DNA from: an uncultured Alphaproteobacteria bacterium
GTDB taxonomy: Bacteria; Pseudomonadota; Alphaproteobacteria; Caulobacterales; Hyphomonadaceae
Direction of reading: 5' to 3'
DNA length: 41,109 nucleotides
NCBI GenBank assembly: GCA_903831255.1
Contig: CAIKWZ010000052.1
Location: 1-41,109 of the forward strand
Made by a program: the position numbers and the translations under genes. The stretch's first letter is position 1, and every line of letters starts with the position of its first letter. Of the stretch, positions 2,565 through 16,418 are shown in pieces. The notes below the pieces were generated by a model. The model had not been told where the DNA came from. It made no database searches and was given only the letters and a program-made list of their open reading frames with translations.

Positions 2565-4885
2565 GATGACGGCCCATCGAACAGGTCGCGCTGAAATCCG
2601 ACGAACGCCTCGCGGATGCTCGATGGGTTCTTGCCTAACTTTACGGTCGCGTCGGAAACGGCTTGGTATTTCAACTCCAAGAGGCTTGCGAGTTTGTCGG
2701 CACCAAGCTCGTCGATTCCGCGCTCGACGTACTGCCCAAGGACGAACTCAAGGAAATCCTGAAGTTTGGAATCGAACGGCGAGAGAACCGCTGCTTTGCG
2801 CGCGGATACGCGTTCGGAACGTGTGATCGCCGGAAGCGCATAGGCGATGTATGCGAGGACATCGAAAAGATCGCTCTTCTCGGCGTTGATCATCTTGGCG
2901 ATTTCGTTGAGCTGATCGCGCCCGTAGCCGCGCTCGCTCAAACCTTCGAGCAAAGCCTGTCTTGTGACCGGATCGCCCCAAAGCTTTCGCAGCTCGGCTT
3001 CGTCTTTGAACAGGGCGGGCAGTTCGCCATATAGCCGCTGAACAAATTCGGCGGCGGACAGCGGACGGCCATCGGGACTGTAAAACATCGTTGCGGACAT
3101 GTGCTGAAGCGTCCGCTCTTTGCCGTCGGCGAGCTTGATCTTGAGCCGCTGCGGCCTTGGTTCGGGTTCTCCGGGTGGCGTTGGATCGCCGGGTTCTCGC
3201 GGTCCGGTCGGCGGGCGCGGTTCGCCGGGCGGTTCCGGTTCCAGCGGCTCGCCGTCCCATTCGGGATCGTTGAAGTGGTAGTAGGCCTTCACGAAGTCGT
3301 AGATCGTGAAATAGTCCTTGCCGTCATAGAGGCGCGTACCGCGCCCGACGATCTGCTTGAACTCGATCATCGAGTTGACGGGGCGCATCAACACGATGTT
3401 GCGCACGTTGCGCGCATCGACGCCGGTAGAGAGCTTCTGAGACGTGGTCAGGATCGTCGGAATGGTCTTTTCGTTATCCTGAAAGGCGCGCAGCCACGTT
3501 TCGCCTTCCGCGCCGTCATTGGCGGTGACGCGAACGCAATAGTTCGGGTCTTTGCTCGTCTTCATCTGGTTGATGAGGTCGCGCACAGCAGCGGCGTGAT
3601 CTTGGGTCGCGCAGAAGACGATGGCCTTTTGGTTCTGGTCGATCATCTCCATGAAGGTCTTGACGCGATAGGCCTCGCGTTCCTTGATTTCGATGATGCG
3701 GTTGAAGTCGCCTTCGGTGTAGCGGCGACCTTCCTCGACTTCGCCGTCGATCACGTCGTCGTCGCGGGTATAGACGTAGTCATCCAACGTCGTCGCGATC
3801 TGGCGCACCTTGAAGGGCGTCAGGAAGCCGTCATTGATCCCCTCGCGTAGCGAGTAGGTGTAAACCGGCGCGCCGAAATAGGCGTAGGTATCTACGTTGT
3901 CGCGGCGCTTGGGCGTGGCGGTCAATCCGAGCTGCACGGCGGGGGAGAAATAGTCGAGGATCGCACGCCAATTGCTCTCGTCCTTAGCACCGCCGCGATG
4001 GCACTCGTCGATGATGATGAAATCGAAGAAGTCAGGCGCATAGTCAAAGAAGCTGGGCTGCGGCTGGCCGTCTGCATTGGTGCCGCTCATGAAGGTCTGG
4101 AAGATCGTGAAGAAAACCGAGCCATTATGCGGCGCGCGGCCAGTCGCCCTTAAGCGGCGAGGGTCGAGCCGCACGCGCGCGTCATCGGCGAACGGCGAAA
4201 AGGCATTGTAGGCCTGATCAGCAAGGATGTTGCGGTCGGCAAGGAACAGGATGCGCGGGCGGCGCGTGGGCTCGCCCGTTCTGTTCCATTTGGCGTGGAA
4301 CAGCTTCCACGCAATTTGAAACGCGATGTAGGTTTTTCCCGTACCGGTCGCGAGCGTCAGCAGAATGCGGTCGCGCTTGGCCGCGATGGCTTCAAGCACG
4401 CGATCAATCGCGATGTCCTGATAGTAGCGCGATGTCCACGAGCCGCCCTTGTCCTCGATGGGCACGCCGGCGAAGCGGTCACGCCACGCATTTTCTTCCG
4501 CGAACGTCCATGCCCAAAGCTGGTCGGGCGTGGGGAAGCCGAGCGTATCGCCCTCCGCGCCCGTTTCCATGTCCGCCTGATAAACGCCAAGGCCGTTGGT
4601 TGAATAAGTAAAGCGGATCGCGAGCTTGGTCGCATAGGCCTTGGCTTGCCCGAGCCCCTCGGTCACATGGGCGTCGCGCTTCTTGGCCTCGACCACCGCA
4701 AGACGATGCCCACGATAAAACAAGACGTAGTCGGCAATGTCGGCCTTGCCGCGCTTGCCCAAGCCTTCAAGGCGACCAGCGGTGATCTGAAACTCGCGCG
4801 CGACGCGGCTGCCCTCAACCAAGCCCCAGCCAGCGGCCTTCAGGGCGGGATCAATCAACTCGGCGCGTGTCTCCGCCTCATTCAT
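2561..4885 (-). CDS. hsdR: Type I restriction endonuclease, R (translocase/nuclease) subunit
   Basis: The 774-aa protein is the DNA-translocating and cutting subunit of a type I RM complex. The N-terminal PD-(D/E)xK nuclease shows D52 and the E66-A-K68 motif in LAVVEAKKR. Superfamily 2 helicase motifs follow: Walker A ATGTGKT at 179-185, FLADRNILADQ near 214-224, DECH at 293-296, TATP at 322-325 and IVGRGTRL further on. A proline/glutamate-rich linker of about 35 residues precedes the C-terminal domain that contacts the M and S subunits. The layout and length fit the EcoEI-like branch. The ATG start overlaps the hsdS stop by 4 nt (ATGA at 4882-4885) and its own stop overlaps the next gene by 4 nt, so all four genes are probably translated from one message. 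All catalytic motifs look intact. Confidence 0.96.
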   Translation of the reverse strand: MNEAETRAELIDPALKAAGWGLVEGSRVAREFQITAGRLEGLGKRGKADIADYVLFYRGHRLAVVEAKKRDAHVTEGLGQAKAYATKLAIRFTYSTNGLGVYQADMETGAEGDTLGFPTPDQLWAWTFAEENAWRDRFAGVPIEDKGGSWTSRYYQDIAIDRVLEAIAAKRDRILLTLATGTGKTYIAFQIAWKLFHAKWNRTGEPTRRPRILFLADRNILADQAYNAFSPFADDARVRLDPRRLRATGRAPHNGSVFFTIFQTFMSGTNADGQPQPSFFDYAPDFFDFIIIDECHRGGAKDESNWRAILDYFSPAVQLGLTATPKRRDNVDTYAYFGAPVYTYSLREGINDGFLTPFKVRQIATTLDDYVYTRDDDVIDGEVEEGRRYTEGDFNRIIEIKEREAYRVKTFMEMIDQNQKAIVFCATQDHAAAVRDLINQMKTSKDPNYCVRVTANDGAEGETWLRAFQDNEKTIPTILTTSQKLSTGVDARNVRNIVLMRPVNSMIEFKQIVGRGTRLYDGKDYFTIYDFVKAYYHFNDPEWDGEPLEPEPPGEPRPPTGPREPGDPTPPGEPEPRPQRLKIKLADGKERTLQHMSATMFYSPDGRPLSAAEFVQRLYGELPALFKDEAELRKLWGDPVTRQALLEGLSERGYGRDQLNEIAKMINAEKSDLFDVLAYIAYALPAITRSERVSARKAAVLSPFDSKLQDFLEFVLGQYVERGIDELGADKLASLLELKYQAVSDATVKLGKNPSSIREAFVGFQRDLFDGPSS

Positions 4886-6096
4886 GCAGCGACGGCCTCC
4901 TTGCCGGTAAGCTTGCCGGAGAAGGCTCTGCGTAGAAGCGCTTCGCGCAGCTCTGAGATACGCACCGATTTTTCCGTATAAACGCGCCGCAAATTTCTTG
5001 ATGCGTCGTCAAGGTCGTTAAGTCGTCTTGAAATTTCACGCTGAGCGTCAAGAGTCGGAATTAGGTGAAAGAACTCGCGTTGCTTTGTAATCGGCACTTG
5101 GTTTCGCGTCGATTGCCTCATGATCTGCTCGTACTGCGAGCGAAATGTGCGAGATCGCATGTAATGCGCGAGGTAATGGTTGTCGATGAAGTCCGAATTG
5201 CACCGATAGTATGTGAGAGATGTGCCGAGAATGACGCGTGGCTCTGTCGTCGAGAGCACCGCCACCGGTCCAACCGTGGCGTTGTGAGCAAAGAGGACAT
5301 CTCCACTCCGTGCGACACCCTTGCGGATGGTGTCAGCGCGAGCGGGCGACAGGTACTTAGCCGCCGACATATCAACGGCATCGTCGTCGATGGCATTTGC
5401 GGAAATGTATGGAACTCCTTCTGAAACGAACTCCTCCTTTCGCGGGTAGTCGCTGCCATGGTTGCCGTCCAGGTGGCTTACAATCCAGCCGCGCTCGATT
5501 AGAGATTCAAGCGTAGCGGCCTCACCACCGCGCGCCGCACCGGCTATCAACGCATCGCACGTTCCATCAATGACCTCCCTCGCGTTGGCGAGGTTGCGCT
5601 CGGCGTTAGCGGCAGCCTTAGCAACCCCCTCGAATGTCTCGTCGAGAATGGCGACGATACGCTTCTGCTCGGCGAGCGGCGGCACTGGCACACTGATCTT
5701 CTCGATCTGCCCCTTGTTGATTGATGGGAAAACCGCCCCCGCATTTCCCGTGAGCTGCGGTTCTATGTACTTGAGAAAGTAGAAAAGATAAGTCGCGTCG
5801 ATTGATCGGCCGACTCGGATTGCCGCCAATCCTCGGCCGATACAGCACCTGTCAGCAGCAAAATTTACAGGCCCCACCGGAGCCCGCACCGACATCAAAA
5901 TGTCTCCGGCAAGAGCCACCTTGGTCGTTTCCCGCGTCCACACTTGCGGCGGCCCGATTACTCGATCTGTGAACTCCTTCTTGCCCTGATAAAATGAGAG
6001 GCCTTCGCCGTTATCGTTGTAGTGAACGCCCTCGGGTGATTGCCCCGCAACAACAACCGCAATGTCTCCCAAATTTTGAAGTGCCCAAGCCGTCAC
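4882..6096 (-). CDS. hsdS: Type I restriction-modification specificity subunit
   Basis: This 404-aa protein recognises the bipartite target DNA for both methylation and cleavage. It has the standard two-half layout. Target recognition domain 1 covers about residues 1-150 and ends in the family signature PLAEQKRIVAILDE, which begins the first conserved helix. A second target recognition domain follows (about 200-365), and a C-terminal helix ends in LREALLRRAFSGKL, a typical HsdS ending. The start is a GTG at 6096 overlapping the hsdM TGA (GTGA), and the stop overlaps hsdR. Both halves are present, so a normal bipartite target is expected; the target itself cannot be read from the sequence. The recognition domains are usually the fastest-changing part of such operons. 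Confidence 0.94.
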   Translation of the reverse strand: MTAWALQNLGDIAVVVAGQSPEGVHYNDNGEGLSFYQGKKEFTDRVIGPPQVWTRETTKVALAGDILMSVRAPVGPVNFAADRCCIGRGLAAIRVGRSIDATYLFYFLKYIEPQLTGNAGAVFPSINKGQIEKISVPVPPLAEQKRIVAILDETFEGVAKAAANAERNLANAREVIDGTCDALIAGAARGGEAATLESLIERGWIVSHLDGNHGSDYPRKEEFVSEGVPYISANAIDDDAVDMSAAKYLSPARADTIRKGVARSGDVLFAHNATVGPVAVLSTTEPRVILGTSLTYYRCNSDFIDNHYLAHYMRSRTFRSQYEQIMRQSTRNQVPITKQREFFHLIPTLDAQREISRRLNDLDDASRNLRRVYTEKSVRISELREALLRRAFSGKLTGKEAVAA

Positions 6097-7538
6097 AGCA
6101 TTCCCCTGATCTGCTGAAGGATGCCTGCGCTCTCAGCGTCGAGCGCCATCATCTCCTCGATGATGTCTTCTGGCTCTCGGTAGGCGACCGCATTTTTGCG
6201 GCTAGGGTTCTTCACCGACATGTCGAGCGTAGCCGCGTCGAGGTCACTGGCCTTCACGATCCAGCTCTTTTCGCCTTCCGCCCGCGTCGCAGCCAAGCGC
6301 ACGAACTCCTCGAAGTCCGCGTCGGTTAGTGACGTGGTCTTGCCTAAATTGCGGCCTGGATCGAGCTGATAGAACCAGATGTCGCGCGTCGGCGCGCCCT
6401 TCTCGAAGAACAGGACCACCGTCTTCACGCCCGCACCCTGAAACGTGCCGGATGGGCAATCGAGCACTGTGTGCAAGTTGCAAGTGGAGACCAGCTCCCT
6501 CCGCAGCGCCGTCGCGTCGCCGTTCGACATCACGGTGTTCTTGATGACAATCGCGGCGCGCCCGCCGGGCTTTAGCATCTTCATGAAGTGCTGAAGGAAG
6601 AGATACGCCGTCTCCCCGGTGCGGATCGGGAAGTTTTGCTGAATTTCCCGACGTTCCGATCCGCCGAAGGGCGGGTTGGCAAGGATCACGTCTTTCTGGT
6701 CGCGCGGCTGAATGTCGGAAAGTGACCGCCCGAGAGAATTGTCGTGCACGATATTCGGCGCGTCGATCCCGTGCAGGATCATGTTCATGATGGCGATGAC
6801 GTAGGCGAGGCTCTTCTTCTCGACGCCGTGGAACGTGCTGCGCTGAAGCGTCTCCAAGTCTTTCGTGCTGCTGGCGTTGGGGCGCATGTAGGCGAAGGCT
6901 TCGCACAGGAAGCCCGCCGAGCCGACTGCGCCGTCATAGATCGTCTCGCCGATCTTTGGTTTCAACACTTGGATCATGGCGCGGATGAGCGGGCGCGGCG
7001 TGTAATACTCCCCGCCGTTGCGGCCCGCATTGCCCATGCGTTTGATCTTGACCTCGTAGAGGTCGGACAGCTCGTGCTTCTCGTCCTGCGATCCGAAGCG
7101 GAGCTGATCGGTTAGCTCCAGCACTGCGCGGAGCGTGTAGCCTGAATTGAACTTCGGTTTGATCTCCCCGAAAATCTCCCCGATTTTGTATTCGATAGTG
7201 TCGGGACTGGCCGCGCGTTGTTTGAAGCCCCGAAGGTAGGGGAACAGCGTGTCGTTGACGTATTCTTTGAGGTCAGGACCGGTCATAGCCGCGTCACGAT
7301 CGAGTGAACCATCGGCCCTCTTAGGAGCAGCCCAGGCTGACCAGCGGTGTTTGGCGTCTATGATGAAGTCGTAGTGCTTGCCTTCGAGTTCGGCTTTCAG
7401 CGCGCGCTCGTGCTCGAGGTCATCAAGGTACTTGAGGAACAGAATCCACGACGACTGCTCGGTGTAGTCCAGCTCCGTCGTGCAGCCGTCTTCTTGGCGC
7501 AACTCGCGATCTATGCTGTTGAATGTTTGGTCGAACAT
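6093..7538 (-). CDS. hsdM: Type I restriction-modification DNA adenine methyltransferase subunit
   Basis: HsdM transfers a methyl group from S-adenosylmethionine to adenine in the host copies of the target. From the ATG at 7538 the protein has 481 aa. It shows an N-terminal HsdM helical domain, then GEYYTPR at about 176-182, a motif I region YDGAVGSAGF at 201-210 and the catalytic motif NPPF at 288-291. The frame stays open 55 codons upstream to a TTG, but that extension is Arg-rich and unlike HsdM. The ATG at 7538 is preceded by a GGGGG tract a few bases upstream and begins MFDQTFNSIDREL, a normal HsdM start, so I chose it. It is the first gene of the M-S-R-ATPase operon, and its stop overlaps the hsdS GTG. 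Confidence 0.95.
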   Translation of the reverse strand: MFDQTFNSIDRELRQEDGCTTELDYTEQSSWILFLKYLDDLEHERALKAELEGKHYDFIIDAKHRWSAWAAPKRADGSLDRDAAMTGPDLKEYVNDTLFPYLRGFKQRAASPDTIEYKIGEIFGEIKPKFNSGYTLRAVLELTDQLRFGSQDEKHELSDLYEVKIKRMGNAGRNGGEYYTPRPLIRAMIQVLKPKIGETIYDGAVGSAGFLCEAFAYMRPNASSTKDLETLQRSTFHGVEKKSLAYVIAIMNMILHGIDAPNIVHDNSLGRSLSDIQPRDQKDVILANPPFGGSERREIQQNFPIRTGETAYLFLQHFMKMLKPGGRAAIVIKNTVMSNGDATALRRELVSTCNLHTVLDCPSGTFQGAGVKTVVLFFEKGAPTRDIWFYQLDPGRNLGKTTSLTDADFEEFVRLAATRAEGEKSWIVKASDLDAATLDMSVKNPSRKNAVAYREPEDIIEEMMALDAESAGILQQIRGML

Positions 7539-7926
7539 GAGCCCCCGGCGTGTCTGGATTGCCCTCCCTGAGGATCGCAATCCGAAATTGAACATTCTCC
7601 CGGTGACGACGAAATTCCAAGCGTCTCCATGAAGTGCCCTCGCTCGCCGCCTGCCACCCGTCACTTCCTCTGGAAGCGACCGCGCTGGCCGCGATTCGGA
7701 CAAATGGCACTTTAGCGCGGTTCGTATTTCGTTCCAACGCCTTTGGTAGCTGGTTTCCGTAAGTCCGACGAAGACGGCGTTTTCGCTGGCCGTCGAGCAA
7801 ACGCTGCGAACACGCTGCGAAGCGGAGACAGAGCGTGCAAAGCCGCCACGAAGATGCTGCGGCGGCGTTTAGGTGCGACCTTGTTAGAGGCGCGGCTCGG
7901 CTTTGGTCGCAAAAAGCGCGAGCCGG
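7539..7926. other. Intergenic leader between the relaxase gene and the RM operon
   Basis: The 388 bp between the relaxase stop and the hsdM start hold no gene I can support. Overlapping frames here are Arg-rich and lack ribosome binding sites. On the minus strand a weak sigma-70-like pair is visible (listed separately), which would give hsdM a leader of roughly 160 nt. The stretch from about 7760 to 7910 has several imperfect GC-rich inverted repeats but no clear U-tract terminator. The RM operon could therefore also receive read-through from the mobilization genes. Confidence 0.5.
7709..7737 (-). promoter_or_regulatory. Possible sigma-70-type promoter for the RM operon
   Basis: On the minus strand TTGGAA (7732-7737) is separated by 17 nt from TAAAGT (7709-7714). 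Each box matches 4 of 6 consensus positions and the spacing is ideal. It is the only candidate I noticed upstream of hsdM. Such weak matches also arise by chance. Confidence 0.25.
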
Positions 7927-9339
7927 TTAGCGTGCGCTTGTCGGCGGCTCCGGCCCCGCCGTGTTGGTCTGCTGCTGCTCTGACGCTTGCTCGCGCTGGC
8001 GCTGCTGTTCGGCCAGTTGGGCGGCGAAGCGTTGAACTTCTTCGTAGTCGCGTGTGCGGCGCGCGAGGTCTTCTCCGAAGAGCAATTCGCGGTCGCGCGC
8101 CTGTTGCGCTTGGCGCTCGGCGAGATCGTCCAATTCGACCTTTTTGCCCGCCTCAAGCCGCGCTGCTTCCTCCGCGTGTTCGCGGTCGAGTGCTTTGACG
8201 ACGGTGTTACGCGCCTCGTCGCGCTCGGCTTGGCGGCGATTAGCCCACGCGGGAGAGACGAACTCGATCACCGCATCGACGATGCGGGCGAAGCCTTTGC
8301 GTTCTGCCTGTTCGTCGTATCGCTCCAGCGCCGCCGTGCGCGTGGCGTCCGATTGCGCCACCTTCGCAGCGATGTCCTGATCGAGCATCGCGCCAACGCG
8401 GTCGCGCTCTGCCGCGTGGAAATCGGCAAGCCGCTGCATGTCCTCGGCGTGCCACGCGCGCAGCGCCTCATCGAGTCTCGCGCCGCTCTTGCCATCGTCG
8501 ATGGGTGGCGATGCGGCGGGCGCTTCGGCGAGAGGCTTTTGCTCGGGCGCGGGTCGTTGCTCTTGCAGCGCCTTCGCCTCCGCGACGGTGGGCAGCGTGT
8601 CGGCGTCCACGTCGGCCATGAGGGCCCGCAGATCCTTGGCAGTCATGCCTTTGATCTGGCGGGCCAAGCTATAGACCTCGCCCGCCTGATCGACGATCAC
8701 GAAGTCGCGCCTGTCGCCTTGGGCGACGATCAGTCCGTGGTCGTCGAGGTTCTTTTGCAGCGCCGTGCCGCTGGTGCTCGCGTGATAGAGCGCCGTTACC
8801 CGATCCTTGAAGGCGCGCGGGTCGTGGCCGCTGCGCTCGGCTTGTTGCCATTCGGCATGGCTGATAGGTGCGCGCTCCTCGGCGGGCTTTGTCACCACGG
8901 CTTCGTGGCCGAACTCCTTTTCGAGAGCGCGGGCGACGCGCTTGTGGGCGTCGTAATTGTTGCTGTCCGAAAGCAGGGTCATGGTGTCGATGTCGGTGCG
9001 CTGCCACACCACATGGATGTGCTGGCGGTCGTTCTTCTCGTGCAGCACGACGACGCGCGGCTGGCCGTCGAGCCCCAATTCGCGCTCAAGCAGATCGACC
9101 GCGCGTGTCCATTGAGCGGCGGTCATGGAGTAGCTGGCGTCGGGGTCGATGTTGGCGTGGTAGAGGCCGTATCGCCCCCGCGTGCCTTCGGCGATGGTCT
9201 GCCACTCGCTGAAGGCGTCGCCGATGGTGGCGGCGGCGGCGGGCTTTTCGAGGACTTCGACGCGCTCGTTGGTGTCCACCCGCTGAAGGTGGGTCTCAAG
9301 CTGTTTTGGCCCGCCCCGACTCTTGCCCTTGATGATCAC
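7927..9339 (-). CDS. Relaxase / mobilization nuclease (MobA/VirD2-like, probably MOBP)
   Basis: This 470-aa protein should nick the element at oriT and carry the strand to the recipient. The start is the GTG at 9339, overlapping the mobC stop by 4 nt (GTGA). The frame is open further upstream, but that part is antisense-like Arg-rich sequence in the mobC region. The relaxase domain is N-terminal: a histidine triad (H100, H107, H109) sits in HEKNDRQHIHVVWQR, the metal-binding motif of HUH-type relaxases, and several tyrosines (Y57, Y60, Y70) are candidates for the strand-cleaving residue. Residues from about 290 on are rich in Ala, Glu, Arg and Gln and look like a long coiled coil. The classification as MOBP rests on the motif and the MobC partner and was not tested by alignment. 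Confidence 0.88.
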   Translation of the reverse strand: MIIKGKSRGGPKQLETHLQRVDTNERVEVLEKPAAAATIGDAFSEWQTIAEGTRGRYGLYHANIDPDASYSMTAAQWTRAVDLLERELGLDGQPRVVVLHEKNDRQHIHVVWQRTDIDTMTLLSDSNNYDAHKRVARALEKEFGHEAVVTKPAEERAPISHAEWQQAERSGHDPRAFKDRVTALYHASTSGTALQKNLDDHGLIVAQGDRRDFVIVDQAGEVYSLARQIKGMTAKDLRALMADVDADTLPTVAEAKALQEQRPAPEQKPLAEAPAASPPIDDGKSGARLDEALRAWHAEDMQRLADFHAAERDRVGAMLDQDIAAKVAQSDATRTAALERYDEQAERKGFARIVDAVIEFVSPAWANRRQAERDEARNTVVKALDREHAEEAARLEAGKKVELDDLAERQAQQARDRELLFGEDLARRTRDYEEVQRFAAQLAEQQRQREQASEQQQTNTAGPEPPTSAR

Positions 9340-9695
9340 CGCGTCGGTGTCCTCAAGGCGGCCAGAATGGCTTGGCGCAACTGCCGGTATTCTGCGACGG
9401 CGGCCAGCACGTCGGGCGTTGCCACCGCGCCGCCCTTGTTGAGCTGCTTGGCGATCTGGTTGAGGTTGCCGCCGATCTTGCCTGTCTGGCCGAGCAGACG
9501 GCGCAGCAATGCCTCGTCCACGGGGATGCGGGTTTTGGCGCGCGGGCCTTTGTCGCCCAATGCTGCGGCGCGCAAGAACGCGCCGACCGTGAGGCCCTTT
9601 TGCATGGCGAGCGCGTCGATGGCGTCCCGCTCTTCGGGTGTAACGCGCACCGTGAAGGTGGCTGTTCGTCGTCGTAGCTCGCTGCCGCTCGCCAT
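9336..9695 (-). CDS. mobC: MobC-family relaxosome accessory protein
   Basis: MobC-type proteins bind oriT, open the DNA near the nick site and assist the relaxase. This 119-aa protein has an N-terminal ribbon-helix-helix-like part (about residues 12-47, TATFTVRVTPEERDAI) and the family hallmark GGNLNQIAKQLN at 75-86. The ATG at 9695 has AAGGGA about 7 nt upstream. The gene overlaps the relaxase GTG by 4 nt and follows the inverted-repeat region that probably contains oriT. MobC proteins often repress their own operon; that would fit here but is not shown by the sequence. Confidence 0.9.
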   Translation of the reverse strand: MASGSELRRRTATFTVRVTPEERDAIDALAMQKGLTVGAFLRAAALGDKGPRAKTRIPVDEALLRRLLGQTGKIGGNLNQIAKQLNKGGAVATPDVLAAVAEYRQLRQAILAALRTPTR

Positions 9696-9774
9696 GTGCT
9701 ATCCCTTCTTCGTCGCGCGTTGCGCGAAAAGCCAAGGGCGTCGTGGGCGGCGGCGCGGCATCCCAGCCGCGCGG

Positions 9775-10073
9775 GGTTTCCAAAGGGAGTACAGCCCTTT
9801 GGTCGTATCCAAGGCCGAAACCTTGGTCGGGTTTCCAAAGGGCGCGAAGGCCGCTTTGGTCGTGGTCTCAAGGGGCGCGAAAGCCCTTTGATCGTCGCCG
9901 GGGTCGAACACCCCCGGTCTGGTTTCCAAAGGGCAGGAACGCCCTTTCGGTCGGAAGCGGGAACGAACCTCCCGCTCAGGTTTCCAAAGGGCAGGATACG
10001 CTCTTTGGTCGGGTGCATGGGGCGAAGCCCCTGCGCTCGGGGATGCAACGGGGGACGCAGTAACCCCCTTGCC
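9775..10073. repeat. Array of related hairpin repeats upstream of mobC
   Basis: Four copies of a 31-35 bp unit start GGTTTCCAAAGGG (or GTTTCC...) and end CCCTTTGGTCG or a variant: about 9775-9805, 9831-9862, 9921-9953 and 9979-10013. Each copy folds on itself (CAAAGGG with CCCTTTG). Between them lie shorter hairpins with other arms but a similar plan, often with a CGAA loop: 9806-9830 (CAAGG/CCTTG), 9863-9894, 9898-9921 (CCGGGG/CCCCGG), 9954-9979 (AGCGGGA/TCCCGCT), 10017-10033 (GGGGCGAAGCCCC core) and 10050-10070. The arms co-vary while the fold stays, so the structure rather than a protein seems conserved. On the minus strand the array would lie in the mobC leader. Reading frames across it are low-complexity and probably spurious. 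Confidence 0.85.
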
Positions 10074-10080
10074 AAGCCAG

Positions 10081-10119
10081 CCAATCGTTAACGATTGGCG
10101 GCGTGCGGTGTGACCGCAC
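10081..10119. repeat. Perfect palindrome and adjacent stem-loop next to the hairpin array
   Basis: CCAATCGTTAACGATTGG at 10081-10098 is a perfect 18-bp palindrome. Four bases on, GTGCGGT (10103-10109) pairs with ACCGCAC (10113-10119) around a 3-nt loop. Paired elements like these near mobC are typical binding sites for relaxosome proteins or a dimeric repressor. Which protein binds is unknown. Confidence 0.8.
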
Positions 10120-10154
10120 ATGGCTTGCAGATTCCCGAATAGCCCCATCATAGC

Positions 10155-10210
10155 AGGAATTTCTTAACTTTCCGTGTGGGCGTTAAGGTTTGCTTCATCC
10201 TTGCTGCTTT
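10155..10210 (+). other. oriT: Candidate oriT with nick region
   Basis: On the plus strand an inverted repeat CTTAAC (10163-10168) and GTTAAG (10182-10187), 13 nt apart, is followed after 6 nt by TTCATCCTTGC at 10194-10204. This resembles the RP4/IncP-type nick region, whose core is ATCCTG^C, except for one extra T. The site lies between the coupling-protein and mobC genes, where oriT is often found in such elements. The resemblance is by eye; the true nick could lie at another repeat in 10070-10230. Confidence 0.4.
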
Positions 10211-10230
10211 GCCGCAAGCGAGGTGGCTGC

Positions 10231-12840
10231 TCAAAAGCTGTGCGCCAACTCGATCACGTCCTGACGCGCCAATCCGGCTCGTTGAACGTGTGCGTATGCG
10301 TGCCATCGTCCCATTGCGATGAAGTCCGCAGGGGTCATTGCAGGGGCTGTCGTGTTTCCCTCGGTACGATAGCGGCGGTCTTGGTCTTCCTGCCGCCATG
10401 CTGCTTGCTGCTGCGCACTAATCGCCGCGAGTTGCACGGCCTGATCGCCGCCTTCAGGGATGAACCGGGTGTCCGTCTCGTAGGTCGGTTTGGCTGACGC
10501 CCCTCCGATGGATGCCCGCCCAAGGAAACCGCGCGCCGCCTTGAAATAAAATTGCGGCCCGCCCGCATCTGCCGGTGGGGCGTTATCGTCCACCGGCTCC
10601 AATGGCGACCATCCGCTAATCAGCTTGCGTTGGTCGATGCTTTCCCATTGGCCGTCGCCGAAAACGCGGTTGCGCTCATATTCGCCCGCCACCCAACAGG
10701 CATAGGAAACTGTCGCCTGATCCTCCGAGCGGAGGAACACCTTGCTCCGTGCCTGTTGCATGAAGTTCTCGGCGGCGTCCTTGCCCATCGCTTGGGTCAA
10801 TGCCGCGACCGTCTGGGTGGCGAAGACACCCGCCAAGCCGGTCGAGCGGGCGACGTTCCAGAAGGTCGCGTCCGAAAGGCCGGTCGTGGGATCGACCGTG
10901 GCCAATTCCTGCACCTCGTCCATGACGACAAGGCAGGGATTGTCCTGCGGGTTGCCGCCCGACTTCTTCATGTCGGCTTCCCGCAGCCGTGCTTCCCGAT
11001 AGAGGACGGTCTTCAAGAGGATCGCCACAAGGCGAGCCTGAAGGCCGTCGTCCATCGTGTTGAGGGTGACGAGCGCGATCTTGCCGTTGAGCGGCGCGTC
11101 AAGGTTCGCGGTGTTGGCGTCCAACCCGCTCACGAAACGCTCGCGCAAGAGCGGCGCTCCGGCGAAGCCGTCCATCAACTGCGAGATGTTGGCGACGATG
11201 CCGGTTTTGGTGTCCTTCGCCATCTCTGCCCATGCTTGGGTCAGATAAGCGTGGCTGGCGACAACATCGGCGCCCGCGAGTTGGCGGGTGCGTTCCTCGT
11301 GGCGGGCGAAGCTGTCGCGGTCGCCCGCCGCGCGCGCCGTTTCCATCCGCACCAGTTGGCCGGTGGTTTCCTTGCCGATGGCGTCAAGCGCGGGCTGAAG
11401 GCGTTTCTCGTCGAGCACGGCCTGATAGGCCCACCAAAGGCTATAGGGATTGAGCGTTTTGGCTTCGGCCTGGCCTTCGGGCGTCGCCGCATAGGCGCGC
11501 CCGATAGTCAGCATATGGCGCATCACGTTCGCCGCCATATCCGGCCAAAAGCTGTCGCCTCGGCCGCCGCCCATTTGCGCGAGGACGGAGCGCAAGGCGG
11601 CGGCGATCTGGTTGGGGGTCAGCTTGGCGGTGATGTTCACGCCAAGCTCGCCTTGGCCGGTGCCGATGCGCAGCACATCCTTGGAGCGGCCAACGCTGGC
11701 CGCGATCTTCTCGGCGTCGCGCCACAAGACGCCTTTGGCGTCGGTGACGTAAGCGCCGAACTTCGGTTCGGCGAGCACTTGGCTCAGGATCGGCTTCAAG
11801 ACGGCGGTGGTTTTGCCGTCGCCTGTGCCGCCAAAGACGAGCACATGCTGAAAGAGCGACTCGCGGTCGAGCGCGATGCTCTGCCCTTTGGTCGGCGCGG
11901 CGAGATCGCCGCGCAAACGCATCGTGCCCGTACCTTCGCCAACCTTGAAGAGCGGCGAGCCTTCCAAGTAGCCGGTTGCGTGGGCCACTTGGCGCACATA
12001 GCCGGTGTGGGCGAGCGCGCGGGCCTCCGCGCGATAAGGCCAGCGCACATGGCTGTCCTTGGAGATCGCCTCATAAGGCGTTGCCGCTTCCTTGCGCCAA
12101 TGCTCGACCGCAGCGGTGGCGACCATGATGCCGATGCCAATGGCAATCAGCAGCCACGCGGCAATCAAGCCAACAAGCGTCACCGCGCCATGCCAGAACG
12201 CGCCAAACGCGCTGGCGGCGACGGTCTGCCAAACATCCCAGCCCGAAACGTACACCGGCTCTTCGCCGGGAAACTGCTCCAGCAGCACTTGCGGGGCGTC
12301 GCCCGCTTGCCCCGCAAACATCATCATGCCGACAACAATGAGCGGCTGCACGATGAGCGCGATGATCGCCGCTGTAAGTCCCAACTGGCCAGCGGCTTTC
12401 GTCATGCCCGCGCTAAAATGGCGGTCGGCCATCCAAGGGATTTCTCGACCGCCGACGAGCTTGCCGTCCTCCCACAGAGGGCGACGAATGTCGTCAGGCA
12501 CTTCGCTGTAGAGAAAAGGGAAGCGCGTCTCCGGCCACATCTCTTGGGCGATGGCGTGGCGGTCGCCAGCGGCGACGCCAACCTTCCGCTTGCCAAGCCG
12601 CTCGATCGCAGCGGCGAACAAGTCGCTAGCGCGCGAAAGGATCGGAACGCGCGCCACAAGCCACGCCGTGGGCGTCCAAAGGACGCTCGCGGCAAGGCCG
12701 ACGACGAACAGCGCGAGGGCGGGCACGATGTTCAACACACCCAAGATGATCGCGCGCGTGAACGGAATAAGCAGCAGCGCAATAAAAACCGCCGCAGCGA
12801 TGGCGAATGGCACAAAGGCCATGAGCGTTTGCACGGTCAC
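10231..12840 (-). CDS. VirD4/TraG-type conjugal coupling protein
   Basis: Coupling proteins bring the relaxase-DNA complex to a secretion channel and power transfer by ATP hydrolysis at the inner membrane. This 869-aa protein begins with hydrophobic segments at about 8-30 and 32-58, with two further ones near 150-176 and 215-245. The ATPase domain has Walker A GGTGDGKT at 337-344 and Walker B CLVVMDE at 636-642. A C-terminal TraG/VirD4-like segment contains LISGWSPL. At 869 aa it is longer than the classic 600-700 aa VirD4 proteins because of the extra N-terminal membrane segments. The start is a GTG at 12840 overlapping the upstream gene stop (GTGA). No channel genes are visible, so it may feed a channel encoded elsewhere. 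Confidence 0.92.
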   Translation of the reverse strand: MTVQTLMAFVPFAIAAAVFIALLLIPFTRAIILGVLNIVPALALFVVGLAASVLWTPTAWLVARVPILSRASDLFAAAIERLGKRKVGVAAGDRHAIAQEMWPETRFPFLYSEVPDDIRRPLWEDGKLVGGREIPWMADRHFSAGMTKAAGQLGLTAAIIALIVQPLIVVGMMMFAGQAGDAPQVLLEQFPGEEPVYVSGWDVWQTVAASAFGAFWHGAVTLVGLIAAWLLIAIGIGIMVATAAVEHWRKEAATPYEAISKDSHVRWPYRAEARALAHTGYVRQVAHATGYLEGSPLFKVGEGTGTMRLRGDLAAPTKGQSIALDRESLFQHVLVFGGTGDGKTTAVLKPILSQVLAEPKFGAYVTDAKGVLWRDAEKIAASVGRSKDVLRIGTGQGELGVNITAKLTPNQIAAALRSVLAQMGGGRGDSFWPDMAANVMRHMLTIGRAYAATPEGQAEAKTLNPYSLWWAYQAVLDEKRLQPALDAIGKETTGQLVRMETARAAGDRDSFARHEERTRQLAGADVVASHAYLTQAWAEMAKDTKTGIVANISQLMDGFAGAPLLRERFVSGLDANTANLDAPLNGKIALVTLNTMDDGLQARLVAILLKTVLYREARLREADMKKSGGNPQDNPCLVVMDEVQELATVDPTTGLSDATFWNVARSTGLAGVFATQTVAALTQAMGKDAAENFMQQARSKVFLRSEDQATVSYACWVAGEYERNRVFGDGQWESIDQRKLISGWSPLEPVDDNAPPADAGGPQFYFKAARGFLGRASIGGASAKPTYETDTRFIPEGGDQAVQLAAISAQQQAAWRQEDQDRRYRTEGNTTAPAMTPADFIAMGRWHAYAHVQRAGLARQDVIELAHSF

Positions 12841-13511
12841 GATTGTCTCCCCGTAGCAAAGGCGGACGCTGGCAAGAGGTCGCGCATGGTCGCCGGTATC
12901 ATCGACGGATCGACCGGCTGTTCATCGCAGGGCTGCGCGCCCGCGATCTGAAGGCAGAGATAAGTCCATTGGCGCGCATCGCCGCGCCGAATGATGCCAT
13001 AGGCGCGCCGCAACATCGGTTGCGGGCGATAGCCGGGATAGCGCATGGCGGCGTCAACGTAGTAGCCGACAAGCACCGTGCGGCCTTCCTGCACGGCGTG
13101 AATTGCGCCCGGCTGCCATGCGCCTTGCCAAAACTCTTCCGCGTTCTGCGCCACCACGGACTCCGGTAAGCGTCCGTTGGTGTTGAGCGCCTGAAGAAGC
13201 GTGGCGACGCTCGATGGCGCTGTCTCGCGGGTAAGTGCGCGCTCCGCATTGGCGGGCGCGGTTTGAACAACGCCCCTGTCTTGAAGAAACGCGATAACGG
13301 CTGAACGCCTTTCAGCGACAAGCGCGTTTTGCGCGTCGGCGACGCTGGTTGAAGGGGTTGCCTGTGGCAAGTACGTCGTGACGACGACGCCAAGAATGAC
13401 GGCGATCACCGCTGCTAAAAACACGAAAGGGACGGCGTTGCGCCATCGTGCGGCGCGCACGTGCCCGTCTGTGACAAGCAACTCCCATTGCGACATGGCA
13501 AAGCCCCGCAT
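12837..13511 (-). CDS. Inner-membrane protein coupled to the TraG gene, function unknown
   Basis: The 224-aa protein has a short cytoplasmic N-terminus, one membrane helix at about residues 27-48 and a periplasmic part of about 175 residues with two Cys (CLQIAGAQPC). A second ATG five codons downstream (13496) is preceded by GGGG and is an equally good start. The gene overlaps the traG GTG by 4 nt, and no other gene intervenes. A single-span protein tied to a coupling protein suggests a partner linking it to the channel, but I recognise no named family. Its function is inferred from context only. Confidence 0.75.
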   Translation of the reverse strand: MRGFAMSQWELLVTDGHVRAARWRNAVPFVFLAAVIAVILGVVVTTYLPQATPSTSVADAQNALVAERRSAVIAFLQDRGVVQTAPANAERALTRETAPSSVATLLQALNTNGRLPESVVAQNAEEFWQGAWQPGAIHAVQEGRTVLVGYYVDAAMRYPGYRPQPMLRRAYGIIRRGDARQWTYLCLQIAGAQPCDEQPVDPSMIPATMRDLLPASAFATGRQS

Positions 13512-13833
13512 GGCGGCCCTGCTTTCGAGAGCCGGATAGTCGAAGGCTATCGCGCGCGGTGCGACCGCGTGAAGCGAACACAGCTTTTGCGCGAGTATCG
13601 GCGGGATTTTTCGAGCGGCGCGAGTCTTCGCGCCTCAATCGTCAGCGCCGCATGGGCGCTGTTGTTGTTCGAGTCCAAGCGAGAGCGAGCGAGAAGCGCA
13701 AAGGCTTCTTCTCCTTTAGGCCAGAGACCTCGGCCTTCTTATGTGCATCCTCGCATCGGTTCGTCGTTATCGCCGCAAGCCTGAAGGCTTCTCCTCTTCG
13801 TTACGCGCGGGTGCGGCTTCTCTGAACGCGCTG
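13512..13833. other. Divergent intergenic region, GC-rich
   Basis: The stretch between the mobilization genes (minus) and the small gene at 13891 (plus) should hold promoters for both directions, but I see no convincing sigma-70 pair. A near-copy of AAGGCTTCTTCTCC occurs at about 13700 and 13785, and a small inverted repeat AGGCC/GGCCT lies near 13720. No protein-coding frame with a ribosome binding site is visible. Confidence 0.45.
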
Positions 13834-13883
13834 CTCCTTGTCTGCGCATGAAGGCCGCGATGGTCGCGGCCCAAGACAAGGAG
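13834..13883 (+). promoter_or_regulatory. Nested hairpin that buries the ribosome binding site of the 65-aa gene
   Basis: CTCCTTGTCT (13834-13843) is perfectly complementary to AGACAAGGAG (13874-13883). Between them GGCCGCGA (13853-13860) pairs with TCGCGGCC (13864-13871) around a TGG loop. The 3' arm of the outer stem contains AAGGAG, the only Shine-Dalgarno sequence for the ATG at 13891. If the stems form in the transcript, translation starts would be blocked. The pairing is directly visible; that it regulates is inference. The palindromes could instead be a protein-binding operator. Confidence 0.65.
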
Positions 13884-13890
13884 AAGAACC

Positions 13891-14088
13891 ATGACTTTCA
13901 TCATCACGCCCTCTGATCTCGCAGGACTAACCGAACAACAACTCCGCGCCAAGCGTTGCGCGATCTTGAACGATCTCGCCGCAAGCGGCCTGACGCTCGA
14001 AGAGTGCCCGCATATCGCCATAAGCCTACGCTTCATCGACGAAGCTCTGGCGCGCGTCGTTCGCCGCTTTCCTAAGCCTCGCTTCTAA
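13891..14088 (+). CDS. Small protein of unknown function (65 aa)
   Basis: AAGGAG lies 7 nt before the ATG, the best ribosome binding site in this part of the element, and the frame is the only plus-strand gene of the element in the window. The protein is soluble and mostly helical by composition, with the stretch SDLAGLTEQQLRAKRCAIL near the start and a basic C-terminus ending RRFPKPRF. Length and charge would suit a small DNA- or RNA-binding regulator, but no family motif is recognised. Its position between the mobilization genes and the integrase region, and its structured leader, suggest a controlled accessory gene. Confidence 0.7.
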   Translation: MTFIITPSDLAGLTEQQLRAKRCAILNDLAASGLTLEECPHIAISLRFIDEALARVVRRFPKPRF

Positions 14089-14104
14089 CCGAAGCGCTCG
14101 CGCT

Positions 14105-14758
14105 TTAGGGGACGACGCCAGTTTTGCGAAGGTCGTTCAAAACGACGAGGTATTGGTTCGCGACAAGCTCGAACGCATATTTGAGATTCAGGACGGGGAA
14201 ATTGCACGTCTTGCCAAAAACTGCGTCAAAGATTGTGCCCAAGCTCCTGCCGTGCGTGTCAAAACTCGTGATGCGGTAGATGGGATAAAGGTAACTCAAG
14301 CGGTCACCATAGTTGTTGCGAAGCGCTGTGAGCATAGTGTTTACGTCAGGAAGACCCTTCGCTTTCGTCCATGTGGGATCAGCGGGTTCTAGCTGACCTT
14401 GGTGCGCCTGCATGAACTTCTGCCAAGTCGGGGCAGACAAATCCGTCATCAGTTTCCGATACGACTCTTTGAAAGAGTTTTTGAGTTCCTCGTAGCGCGC
14501 CGCTTTTTGCGCGGGATCATCGAAGAGATAGAGGACAGTAAAATAGTTCTCTAACAACGAGCGCGTCAGGACGTGCGTGATGTATCGCTCATCGACGCTA
14601 GCGCTTGCGTCCAGTTTAAAGCTGTTTCCCAGCAAAGTTCCCGCTACCGAACAAAAGCGCAGCACTTCTTGTACGAAGAACCCATCGGCGTCGGCACTTA
14701 GCGACGCCTTCCTAAGAGCGGGCAGCTCCGCTGTCAGGTTGTCGAAGTCAGTGGGCAT
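14105..14758 (-). CDS. Protein of unknown function (217 aa), element cargo
   Basis: I chose the ATG at 14758, which has GAGGA 6 nt upstream. The frame stays open 21 codons further, but that part is basic and lacks a ribosome binding site. The protein begins MPTDFDNLTAEL and looks helical. It contains the conserved-looking stretch RSLLENYFTVLYLFDDP and a later FDTHGRSLGTIFDAVFG. This recalls DUF5677-like helical proteins (an Arg/Glu helix pattern), but the match is only an impression. Transmembrane segments and a signal peptide are absent. As a lone gene between transfer and integration modules it is probably cargo; a defence role is possible but unproven. Confidence 0.75.
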   Translation of the reverse strand: MPTDFDNLTAELPALRKASLSADADGFFVQEVLRFCSVAGTLLGNSFKLDASASVDERYITHVLTRSLLENYFTVLYLFDDPAQKAARYEELKNSFKESYRKLMTDLSAPTWQKFMQAHQGQLEPADPTWTKAKGLPDVNTMLTALRNNYGDRLSYLYPIYRITSFDTHGRSLGTIFDAVFGKTCNFPVLNLKYAFELVANQYLVVLNDLRKTGVVP

Positions 14759-14894
14759 ATGCTTCCTCGCATTTTTGCGAAAAGGCGATGGCCGCTCACC
14801 GTTCGGTTTGCTTATGGCCAACGTGCTTCGCGTTCACTCTGCACTTCGCGGGGCTTACGGACCGAGTTGTTCAACTCTCTGACGCCGTTCGCCG

Positions 14895-14910
14895 TCGGCA
14901 GTTCTGCCGA
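14895..14910. repeat. Short perfect stem-loop downstream of the tRNA
   Basis: TCGGCAG (14895-14901) pairs with CTGCCGA (14904-14910) with only TT between. It lies 26 nt after the 3' end of the minus-strand tRNA. No U-tract follows, so it is not a classical terminator. It may be a processing signal or a binding site. Confidence 0.5.
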
Positions 14911-14935
14911 TAATCCAAACAAATGGAATGAGAGG

Positions 14936-15020
14936 TGGTGCCCCCGGTCGGAATCGAACCGACACACCTTGCGGTACCGGATTTTGAATCCGGCGCGTCT
15001 ACCAGTTCCACCACAGGGGC
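14936..15020 (-). tRNA. tRNA-Leu(CAA), intact, element-borne
   Basis: The 85-nt minus-strand gene folds fully. The acceptor arm GCCCCTG pairs with CGGGGGC (one T-G pair), and the D-loop carries GGTAGACGC. The anticodon stem CCGGA/TCCGG encloses TTCAAAA, giving anticodon CAA (codon UUG). The long variable arm is typical of leucine tRNAs, the T-arm is GTCGG-TTCGATT-CCGAC, and the discriminator A is followed by an encoded CCA. It lies just beyond the integrase stop, inside the element if the junction is at 16380/16381. Its body differs from the disrupted host tRNA at 16381-16418, but the anticodon is the same. Confidence 0.96.
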
Positions 15021-15065
15021 AACGTAGGCATCTTAGCCCACAAGCGATTGTTTCTTCAAGACTAT

Positions 15066-16244
15066 TTAAGTCTTTCTTTTGGCAGGTTTTTTAGAATTGG
15101 CCTTTGGCTTTCTCACATTGAGCCTGTCGGCATCGATCATGTCTTTGATGTGGTTCGCGTAGAATTTTTGAATCATTTCCACGCTTGTTCGGCAGTTCTT
15201 CGCAACCGTGTAGATGTCAGCGCCTTCGATCAGGCGAAGGCAGATGTAGGTGTGGCGTAAGCTGTAGGCCGTGCGCCGCTGACCGTCGCGGTCGAACTTC
15301 AGCTTCGTTTCCTCAAGGATGGTGTTGAGGAGTTCGCGCTGCGGCTTGCCGAAAACCTTGTCGGTCGGCTCTGTCAGCTTCTTGCGCTTCACGGTGCGCT
15401 GGAAGGGAAAGACGGCGTTGTGCGTGCTCTTGCAGTAACCAACGCCACGCTTCCCGCGCACGTCAATTTCCAAGATGGTATTTTGGCCTTTGCCGACGAT
15501 GGTGATGTCGCGCAGTTGCAAGTTGGCCGCTTCATCTGGTCGTAGGCCGGTATTGGCCATGAACAGCACATAGTCGTGCAAATCCTCGGCTTCCTTGACC
15601 CATCGTCCCCGATTGTGCCGTGGGTTCTCAATGCGATCTCGCGTCGCCTCGTACAGCGTCTTGTATTCTTCCGGTGAGAACCATGCGCGGCGGGTGATCT
15701 TGCCAGCCGCCTTGTAGGGCATGGCTAGGTCTGGGACGTGAGTAATCCAGCCGTGGCGCTTGGCGGTTTTGAGAACCTGCCGGATAGCGACAATCTCTTG
15801 GTGGAGCGTGCTGCGCGCGGGGGGCTTGCCCGTCTTGCAAGTCTTCGCTCGGTGGATTCGATATTCTTGGATTGTCTGCTCGTCGATGTCGGCGAGATAT
15901 TTGTTGCCCAGATAGGGCAGAATGATCGCGTTCAGCTTGTTCTCGTATTGCTTGACCCAGCTCTCTGCGCGTTGGCCCTCAGTGATGATGGGGTATTCGA
16001 TCAGAAACTTATCGGCGGCATCTTTGAAGCGCTTCCCGCCTTTGAGGACACCGGCGCGCGCTTTGCCGCGAAGTTCGAGATACCAATCTTCTGCAAAGTC
16101 CTTGGCGTGCGAGAGACTGTCGGTCTTCGTCGATACACGCCACTTGCGTCCGTCAAAGCGTGAGTAGCATTGCCAGTATTGGCTTCGCTCTCGCCGATAG
16201 ACGAGGACTTTGCCGCCCATGATCTCGTGTGTTTGCGTGCTCAT
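15066..16244 (-). CDS. int: Tyrosine recombinase (integrase)
   Basis: The 392-aa protein has an N-terminal arm-binding-like part, a SAM-like core-binding domain (about 72-170) and a C-terminal catalytic domain. Visible catalytic residues are R235 in NTGLRPDEA, R330 in YSLRHTY and the nucleophile Y362 in IQKFYANH. The box II His is replaced by Tyr (Y327), and the second His position reads NCR, variants that occur in this family. It sits at the right end of the element, reading away from the junction, which is the usual place for an integrase using a tRNA gene as target. The Lys-rich tail ends at a TAA at 15066-15068. A strong promoter lies upstream. Confidence 0.95.
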   Translation of the reverse strand: MSTQTHEIMGGKVLVYRRERSQYWQCYSRFDGRKWRVSTKTDSLSHAKDFAEDWYLELRGKARAGVLKGGKRFKDAADKFLIEYPIITEGQRAESWVKQYENKLNAIILPYLGNKYLADIDEQTIQEYRIHRAKTCKTGKPPARSTLHQEIVAIRQVLKTAKRHGWITHVPDLAMPYKAAGKITRRAWFSPEEYKTLYEATRDRIENPRHNRGRWVKEAEDLHDYVLFMANTGLRPDEAANLQLRDITIVGKGQNTILEIDVRGKRGVGYCKSTHNAVFPFQRTVKRKKLTEPTDKVFGKPQRELLNTILEETKLKFDRDGQRRTAYSLRHTYICLRLIEGADIYTVAKNCRTSVEMIQKFYANHIKDMIDADRLNVRKPKANSKKPAKRKT

Positions 16245-16274
16245 TGCTGTCGCGCGCGTTCTGCGCCCTTAAAA

Positions 16275-16303
16275 GTGTGTCCAGTGTGTCCACTGTGTGG
16301 CCA
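16275..16303. repeat. Three 9-bp direct repeats in the integrase leader
   Basis: GTGTGTCCA occurs at 16275-16283 and directly again at 16284-16292. A one-base variant GTGTGGCCA follows at 16295-16303. The repeats lie between the int promoter and the int start codon. They could be operator sites for autoregulation or arm-type sites bound by the integrase; the sequence does not decide which. Confidence 0.75.
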
Positions 16304-16330
16304 GCGACCGTCGCTGAACATCACCCTTTA

Positions 16331-16360
16331 AGTATAGCAAATATAAGCGTTTTTTGTCAA
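16331..16360 (-). promoter_or_regulatory. Strong sigma-70-type promoter for the integrase
   Basis: On the minus strand a perfect TTGACA (-35, 16355-16360) and TATACT (-10, 16331-16336, 5 of 6) are separated by 18 nt in an AT-rich stretch unlike its surroundings. Transcription would start near 16324, about 80 nt before the int ATG. It is the clearest promoter in the window, and it lies only about 20 bp from the element junction. Confidence 0.8.
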
Positions 16361-16380
16361 GAAATCGGATTAGTTTTAGC

Positions 16381-16418
16381 TTTTGAGTCCGCTGCGTCTA
16401 CCGTTTCGCCACGCCCGC
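16381..16418 (-). pseudogene. 5' half of a disrupted host tRNA-Leu(CAA), right attachment junction
   Basis: Read on the minus strand, the 38 nt begin GCGGGCGTGGCGAAAC, contain GGTAGACGC (D-loop) and end GCGGACTCAAAA. This is the start of a leucine tRNA through the anticodon CAA and the end of its loop. The next bases (GCTAAAACTAATCC) do not complete the anticodon stem, which would need TCCGC. The gene is therefore cut in the anticodon loop, and the 3' half should be at the other end of the element, outside the window. The crossover core is probably within CTCAAAA (16381-16387). Sequence to the right reads as chromosome. Confidence 0.85.

Follow-up and report, generated by a model that had tools for sequence, protein, structure and literature searches.

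Insertion of a relaxase-bearing element breaks a host tRNA-Leu(CAA) gene for which the element very probably carries a replacement

Among mobile elements that integrate at tRNA genes, the closest precedent for the locus considered here is the tRNA-dependent lysogeny of actinobacteriophages, in which a tyrosine integrase acts at a short core, the host tRNA gene is broken and a cognate tRNA is supplied (Guerrero-Bustamante and Hatfull 2024, PMC10865867). The same paper states that tRNA-dependent lysogeny has been shown by experiment in mycobacteriophages, that Gaia, the nearest case, targets tRNA-Leu-CAA through an 8 bp core and has its own tRNA downstream of Int, and it mentions the Lactobacillus prophage Lj965; within it, the word 'intron' occurs in one reference title only. 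In a second paper, Sinorhizobium meliloti prophages resembling Mesorhizobium phage vB_MloP_Lo5R7ANS inactivate tRNA-Leu(UAG) centrally and carry a foreign tRNA-Leu(UAG) (PMC11476347). The principle of breaking a tRNA gene and supplying another is known, from actinobacteriophages (PMC10865867), and so the idea of a new strategy, put forward in the initial annotation of the present DNA, survives in part: what is new is a relaxase-bearing, non-phage family, with CAA replacements that lack the target core and group I intron-like inserts that split the core in UAA replacements. A literature search, mostly at title and abstract level, found no published link of tRNA replacement to relaxase-bearing elements and none of tRNA-Leu introns to integrases. 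The present case takes tRNA-dependent integration beyond phages, to elements with a relaxase in Pseudomonadota and Acidobacteriota.

The window, i.e. the whole stretch of 41,109 nt that was analysed, is the complete contig C52 of a 76-contig genome, G000 (completeness 99.99, contamination 2.03). Its minus strand holds, from 16418 to 16381, nt 1-38 of the native host tRNA-Leu(CAA), a 5' half that stops after the CTCAAAA loop, is followed by AT-rich DNA and, from its sequence and the empty site of a relative, marks the left attachment junction. The last 9 nt of this half (16389-16381) read GACTCAAAA, the core common to both tRNA halves. The 3' half, which the initial annotation had predicted for the other end of the element (TCCGC...CCA), lies on another contig of the same genome, at G000:C33:125183-125217 (-), where it reads GACTCAAAATCCGCC...CGCCCGCACCA and is preceded by unrelated DNA, with the junction at C33:125226 (-). 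In the same-genus genome G014, an intact tRNA-Leu(CAA) of the GCGGGCG type occupies the empty site (L021:6714-6797 (-)), and its opening 38 nt equal those of the window with 0 mismatches. By blastn, positions 1-3688 of the G014 stretch align with the window at 80-81% identity in two pieces, up to base 16381, and positions 3680-10416 align with C33 at 84.5% over 6.7 kb, from base 125226 downwards; the two alignments overlap by 9 nt, namely the core. Host flank extends from 16419 to 41109, and its first ~3.65 kb beside the junction, the part covered by the comparison, is collinear with the uninterrupted G014 site. The insertion leaves the halves of the host tRNA-Leu(CAA) apart and the gene broken; the split in the anticodon loop that had been claimed for it is borne out by the 38-nt half, the C33 half and the intact G014 gene. 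Genomic islands of the kind treated in Islander likewise combine a tyrosine integrase with a tRNA gene as site, and they reportedly restore their target (PMC4383910), whereas the present target stays broken: with both junctions and the empty site compared, no restoration by the element is seen at this locus. Classic restoration at this site is ruled out by the C33 junction.

The integrated element fills positions 1-16380 of the window and runs off the left end of the contig, and a further 4171 nt of element DNA leads up to the other junction (C33:125227-129397). Next to the left junction are a sigma-70-like promoter, TTGACA-18-TATACT with 1 mismatch (16331-16360 (-)), ahead of the integrase, such promoter-like sites not being enriched over the family (40/62 loci vs 37.8 expected from shuffles), and three direct repeats like GGACACACTT (16273-16302 (-)), which comparison with shuffles suggests are probable arm-type integrase sites; three more occur in the C33 arm (shuffle means 0.47 and 0.60). 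There follow a tyrosine recombinase (integrase) of 392 aa, identified by family match (15066-16244 (-)), a TraG/VirD4-like type IV coupling protein (10231-12840 (-)), a MobA/VirD2-like relaxase (7927-9783 (-)), the type I restriction-modification genes hsdM-hsdS-hsdR (2561-7703 (-)) and an AAA ATPase of the PADLOC candidate defence type PDC-S06 (3-2564 (-)), which runs off the contig end. The C33 part encodes an AbiLi-like ATPase and an RloB/AbiLii-like partner, and the cargo of the two parts is rich in defence genes (type I restriction-modification, PDC-S06 and the AbiL-like pair). About 9 nt, noted by eye, are common to window positions 1-9 and C33:129389-129397, and continuation of the PDC-S06 frame across them is conceivable; the contigs were kept unjoined. 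An integrative and mobilizable element would have an integrase and a relaxase but lack a full mating-pair apparatus; integrase, relaxase and coupling protein are present here, and no mating-pair family was seen among the ORFs scanned, though the element may extend beyond the C52 and C33 parts. No named phage structural or packaging family was matched by ten element proteins compared with PHROGs, several of the matches being to families of unknown function, and the integrase had 0 matches in 50,697 phage records; in place of the features of a temperate phage, the element has a relaxase and a coupling protein. It is like the systems of tRNA-dependent lysogeny in having a tyrosine integrase at a host tRNA gene (judged from family and junctions, with activity predicted from sequence), in supplying a cognate tRNA and in using a core too short to rebuild the tRNA (9 nt here, 8 bp in Gaia; PMC10865867). 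It is unlike the actinobacteriophages in that no phage genes were found and a relaxase and coupling protein are carried, and in that its family has a conserved integrase-tRNA cassette and replacements split by intron-like inserts. The S. meliloti cases differ by being described as prophages, in two strains and with another anticodon (PMC11476347).

Behind the integrase gene, after 45 nt, begins an intact tRNA-Leu(CAA) with encoded CCA (14936-15020 (-); ARAGORN and Rfam), identical to the native gene at 64/87 aligned columns, in agreement with the initial annotation, which described a complete tRNA of the same anticodon but a different body. Its loop reads TTCAAAA vs the CTCAAAA of the target core, a C-to-T change at position 32 that leaves leucine CAA identity in place. 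In the window's genome, Rfam reports 40 tRNA hits, and the nine of at least 82 nt were typed as tRNA-Leu UAG, CAG, GAG and the window's CAA, four Ser and one Tyr; a pattern search returned one uninterrupted CAA/UAA gene, which is the element's copy. The same annotation held that a second intact host tRNA-Leu(CAA), or the element's tRNA at this place in relatives lacking the element, would speak against a replacement; none of the former was found by ARAGORN, Rfam, typing or pattern search, and the native gene occupies the site in the element-free G014, where no second match turned up.

These findings very probably reflect a strategy in which the element cuts the host tRNA-Leu(CAA), carries its own cognate copy and may keep that copy protected from its own integrase. 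Recombination by the integrase at the 9-bp core, found at both junctions, has left the host gene as two useless halves; the complete tRNA-Leu(CAA) behind the integrase, if expressed and functional, would let the element survive in the cell; and the change at position 32 should keep the integrase from recombining with the supplied gene. In the UAA class described below, a group I-like insert interrupts the supplied gene in the same loop; it would be spliced from the RNA and could give the same protection. All evidence is sequence comparison, from which we infer function, expression, splicing and proofing. The alternative of an ordinary tRNA-site island, with 14936-15020 as the rebuilt host gene and 16381-16418 as a displaced fragment, would give the layout usual for islands (PMC4383910), and intact tRNAs do stand beside the integrases of relatives at Lys, Arg, Met and Phe genes (9 of the best 80 loci); it is scarcely credible here, given that the acceptor stems of the two tRNAs are mismatched, the native 3' half sits at the far end of the element on C33, the empty site carries the GCGGGCG gene and the same 85-nt tRNA accompanies a relative in another target. 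That relative, a MAG of Hyphomonadaceae (L055/G061), carries exactly this 85-nt tRNA beside a broken tRNA-Leu(CAA) of another body than the window's target; its integrase is 94% identical, and its DNA is 88-91% identical across the regions of integrase, coupling protein and relaxase. The tRNA therefore belongs to the element.

Cutting and replacing of this kind recurs across the integrase family. From 84,980 genomes, one scan yielded 280 pattern matches and 259 confirmed relatives, many of them in MAGs, and the best 80 loci were analysed. A tRNA gene lies directly downstream of the integrase in 54 of these 80. A UAA 5' half is combined with an insert-bearing tRNA-Leu(UAA) in 27, a CAA half with an intact tRNA-Leu(CAA) in 18 and a CAA half with an insert-bearing tRNA, read by eye as CAA, in one (L121); a CAA half without downstream tRNA occurs in ten, all titled Acidobacteriota, and in four a UAA half is present and the contig ends 37 to 270 nt past the integrase. 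In eight more, the script found a downstream tRNA and no half (three UAA with insert, two CAA, L106, which is a UAA replacement without insert, one UAG and one Ser(UGA), L123, whose 5' half was later seen by eye), and three have neither half nor tRNA. The remaining nine (L069, L093, L095, L100, L116, L127, L128, L132 and L133) have an intact class I tRNA (Met, Arg, Lys or Phe) before the integrase; therefore, a single integrase family includes both restoring and swapping forms. The median distance from half to integrase is 140 nt (60 loci), and from integrase stop to replacement tRNA 57 nt (54 loci). In a class-wide sample, the integrase was present in 13/385 genomes, the window's own included, and these, by eye, comprise swapping (UAA, UAG) as well as restoring (Met, Arg) forms.

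Wherever both ends could be scored, window included, the broken and supplied anticodons agree (47/47, with L121 scored CAA from a reading of the spliced loop, and 46/46 without it). The integrase tree implies at least eight changes of target, over which broken and supplied tRNA shift together, and independent contrasts on well-supported branches agree in 5/5 (p 0.0625, five pairs being unable to reach 0.05). It is with these counts that one may judge the proposal that the tRNA is cargo with some other use, such as codon supply or resistance to tRNA-cutting defence, and fits the broken gene by accident: phage tRNAs have been proposed to counter tRNA-degrading defences (PMC10865867) and defence genes are aboard the element, but neither 47/47 matching anticodons over repeated target switches nor a fixed place right behind the integrase would be expected of such cargo, which makes this account very improbable. 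The earlier view that the element supplies a replacement for the tRNA it breaks is strengthened by the family-wide agreement of anticodons and by the element's copy being the sole CAA gene. Edaphobacter lichenicola M8US30 provides an example in which a single contig spans both junctions, at a distance of 33.2 kb; strain M8UP30, compared with it, has an intact tRNA-Leu(UAA). Upstream, the flanks share 87.8% identity over 1.5 kb, and downstream the tRNA's 84 nt are identical, with one 119-nt piece aligning beyond.

If the supplied gene has to escape the element's own integrase, the core is where this might be seen. The 9-nt core GACTCAAAA is present in 44/51 native CAA genes vs 0/13 replacements of the elements targeting it (Fisher p 6e-9), a comparison chosen after the whole-arm identity data were seen, with 3/13 replacements from Acidobacteriota and with control genes unscreened for element-borne copies (pattern matched in 52/104 alphaproteobacterial genomes; 51 kept, the window's copy being excluded). 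Collapsing the replacements to lineages gives 0/9 (p 8e-7). Among all CAA replacements, window included, 1/19 (L092) has the same 9 nt as its own target, and the serine locus L123 also keeps the core in its replacement. Identity of the whole anticodon arm between target and replacement does not separate the classes (0/19 vs 4/28, p 0.14; re-pairing expects 0.94).

Replacements of the UAA class are marked by inserts. An insert at the anticodon loop, splitting the core, is found in 30/31 UAA replacements vs 14/237 of the native background (p 7e-28, uncorrected for kinship and with taxa that differ between the sets); the 14 baseline intron genes are those without integrase in the locus, and become 13 if L206, with an integrase 2.2 kb away, is counted as element-borne. 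For that background, an uninterrupted UAA match was found in 223/385 genomes and the intron motif in 29, and the 30 background intron loci that were read comprise 18 tRNA-Leu(UAA), six with a tRNA-Arg(CCU)-like anticodon loop and six unresolved. The conserved motif GTGTAGAGACTAGACGGGCAGCRCC (up to 3 mismatches) occurs in 30/31 insert-bearing replacements (30 UAA plus L121, which is the miss). All four element inserts tested match RF00028 at E 6e-10 or better, one of them above the gathering score of 50 (L121, 51.1 bits, the best; L066 43.6, L089 44.1 and L134 44.3 bits), and a gathering-level Rfam scan of nine loci, four with such an insert, reported no intron. Like the group I introns of bacterial tRNA-Leu(UAA), the family inserts lie in the anticodon loop and are RF00028-like; unlike them, they belong to replacement tRNAs that neighbour an integrase. 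Setting the insert aside, target and replacement of L089, L101 and L104 agree at each of the 32 nt compared; therefore, only the insert separates the two. The uninterrupted UAA replacement of L106 reads CACTTAAAA vs GACTTAAAA at the site beside its integrase. The genome of the window itself has a tRNA-Leu(UAA) split by an insert (G000:C42:~15670-15995 (-), L035), missed by ARAGORN and Rfam, with no related integrase within the surrounding 16 kb. This insert is group I intron-like (42.8 bits, gathering score 50; E 1.3e-9), and it pairs with the intron of element L125 in a weakly resolved tree, in which 10/52 inner branches are well supported and the bootstrap has not settled.

From these sequence patterns, we infer that changed cores and inserts alike may be proofing against the element's own integrase. 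A rival reading accepts the breaking and replacing and holds that the changed cores and introns were captured from donors that already had them: 13/18 intron-bearing tRNA-Leu(UAA) genes of the class sample have no such integrase nearby, L092 and L123 keep the core, and the arm-identity test is not significant. The contrasts in core (0/13 vs 44/51) and insert (30/31 vs 14/237) tell against capture, as do the insert that alone breaks the site in L089, L101 and L104 and the altered bases of the uninterrupted L106, and it is regarded as a possible but rather doubtful account. Under proofing, a more general conjecture, to which about even credence is given, is that widespread tRNA-swapping elements must hide the spare tRNA from their own integrase by core-base changes or a group I intron, that the cassette selects for and spreads tRNA-Leu(UAA) introns, and that integrase-free intron genes, e.g. 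that of C42, may be leftovers of decayed elements. Shielding of a tRNA gene from a site-specific recombinase could then be what selects for a group I intron in bacteria, and may help explain the scattered tRNA-Leu(UAA) introns and foreign core tRNA genes of some bacteria.

Loss of the native gene was assessed by a genome-wide copy search covering 14/18 CAA loci plus the window, ten UAA-class genomes and 4/10 replacement-less loci. For the CAA class, window included, the element copy is the only one in 12/15 genomes, two give no match and are uninformative, and one has a second gene; for the UAA class, there is no match in 5/10, the 3' part only in 3/10 and a second intact gene in 2/10. Three of the genomes tested, G088, G064 and G068, hold a further intact gene of the same type as the broken one. 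Addiction and tolerance had both been suggested for the replacement, and of the two, letting the host tolerate the insertion is the simpler function, because precise excision should restore the host gene. The replacement-less loci of Acidobacteriota, in which CAA is broken (L084, L085, L086, L090, L099, L102, L109, L110, L111 and L114), lack a tRNA in the first 600 nt downstream of the integrase, ARAGORN finding none in the surrounding stretches examined; an intact CAA match is absent in 4/4 of the genomes tested, and therefore CAA loss is survivable.

Several loci show further arrangements. Two tRNA-Leu(UAA) 5' halves stand in a row before the integrase in L129 (6054, 7820) and L098 (7602, 7836), as though one element had inserted into the replacement tRNA of another that came before it. 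In L169, from the class-wide sample, the half is accompanied by a 3' part that pairs poorly, and an insert-bearing replacement follows downstream. In L123, a burkholderial MAG, tRNA-Ser(UGA) is likewise broken and supplied (7831 and 9303), and another tRNA-like sequence with an insert lies at 12049-12159. At L066:9483-9565, Rfam LOOT RNA (RF03000) matches the 3' part of the intron (28.1 bits, gathering 46.4), and this RNA family may partly describe such introns. In L022 (G053), a CAA 5' half and an intact tRNA-Leu(CAA) enclose two family integrases arranged in tandem.
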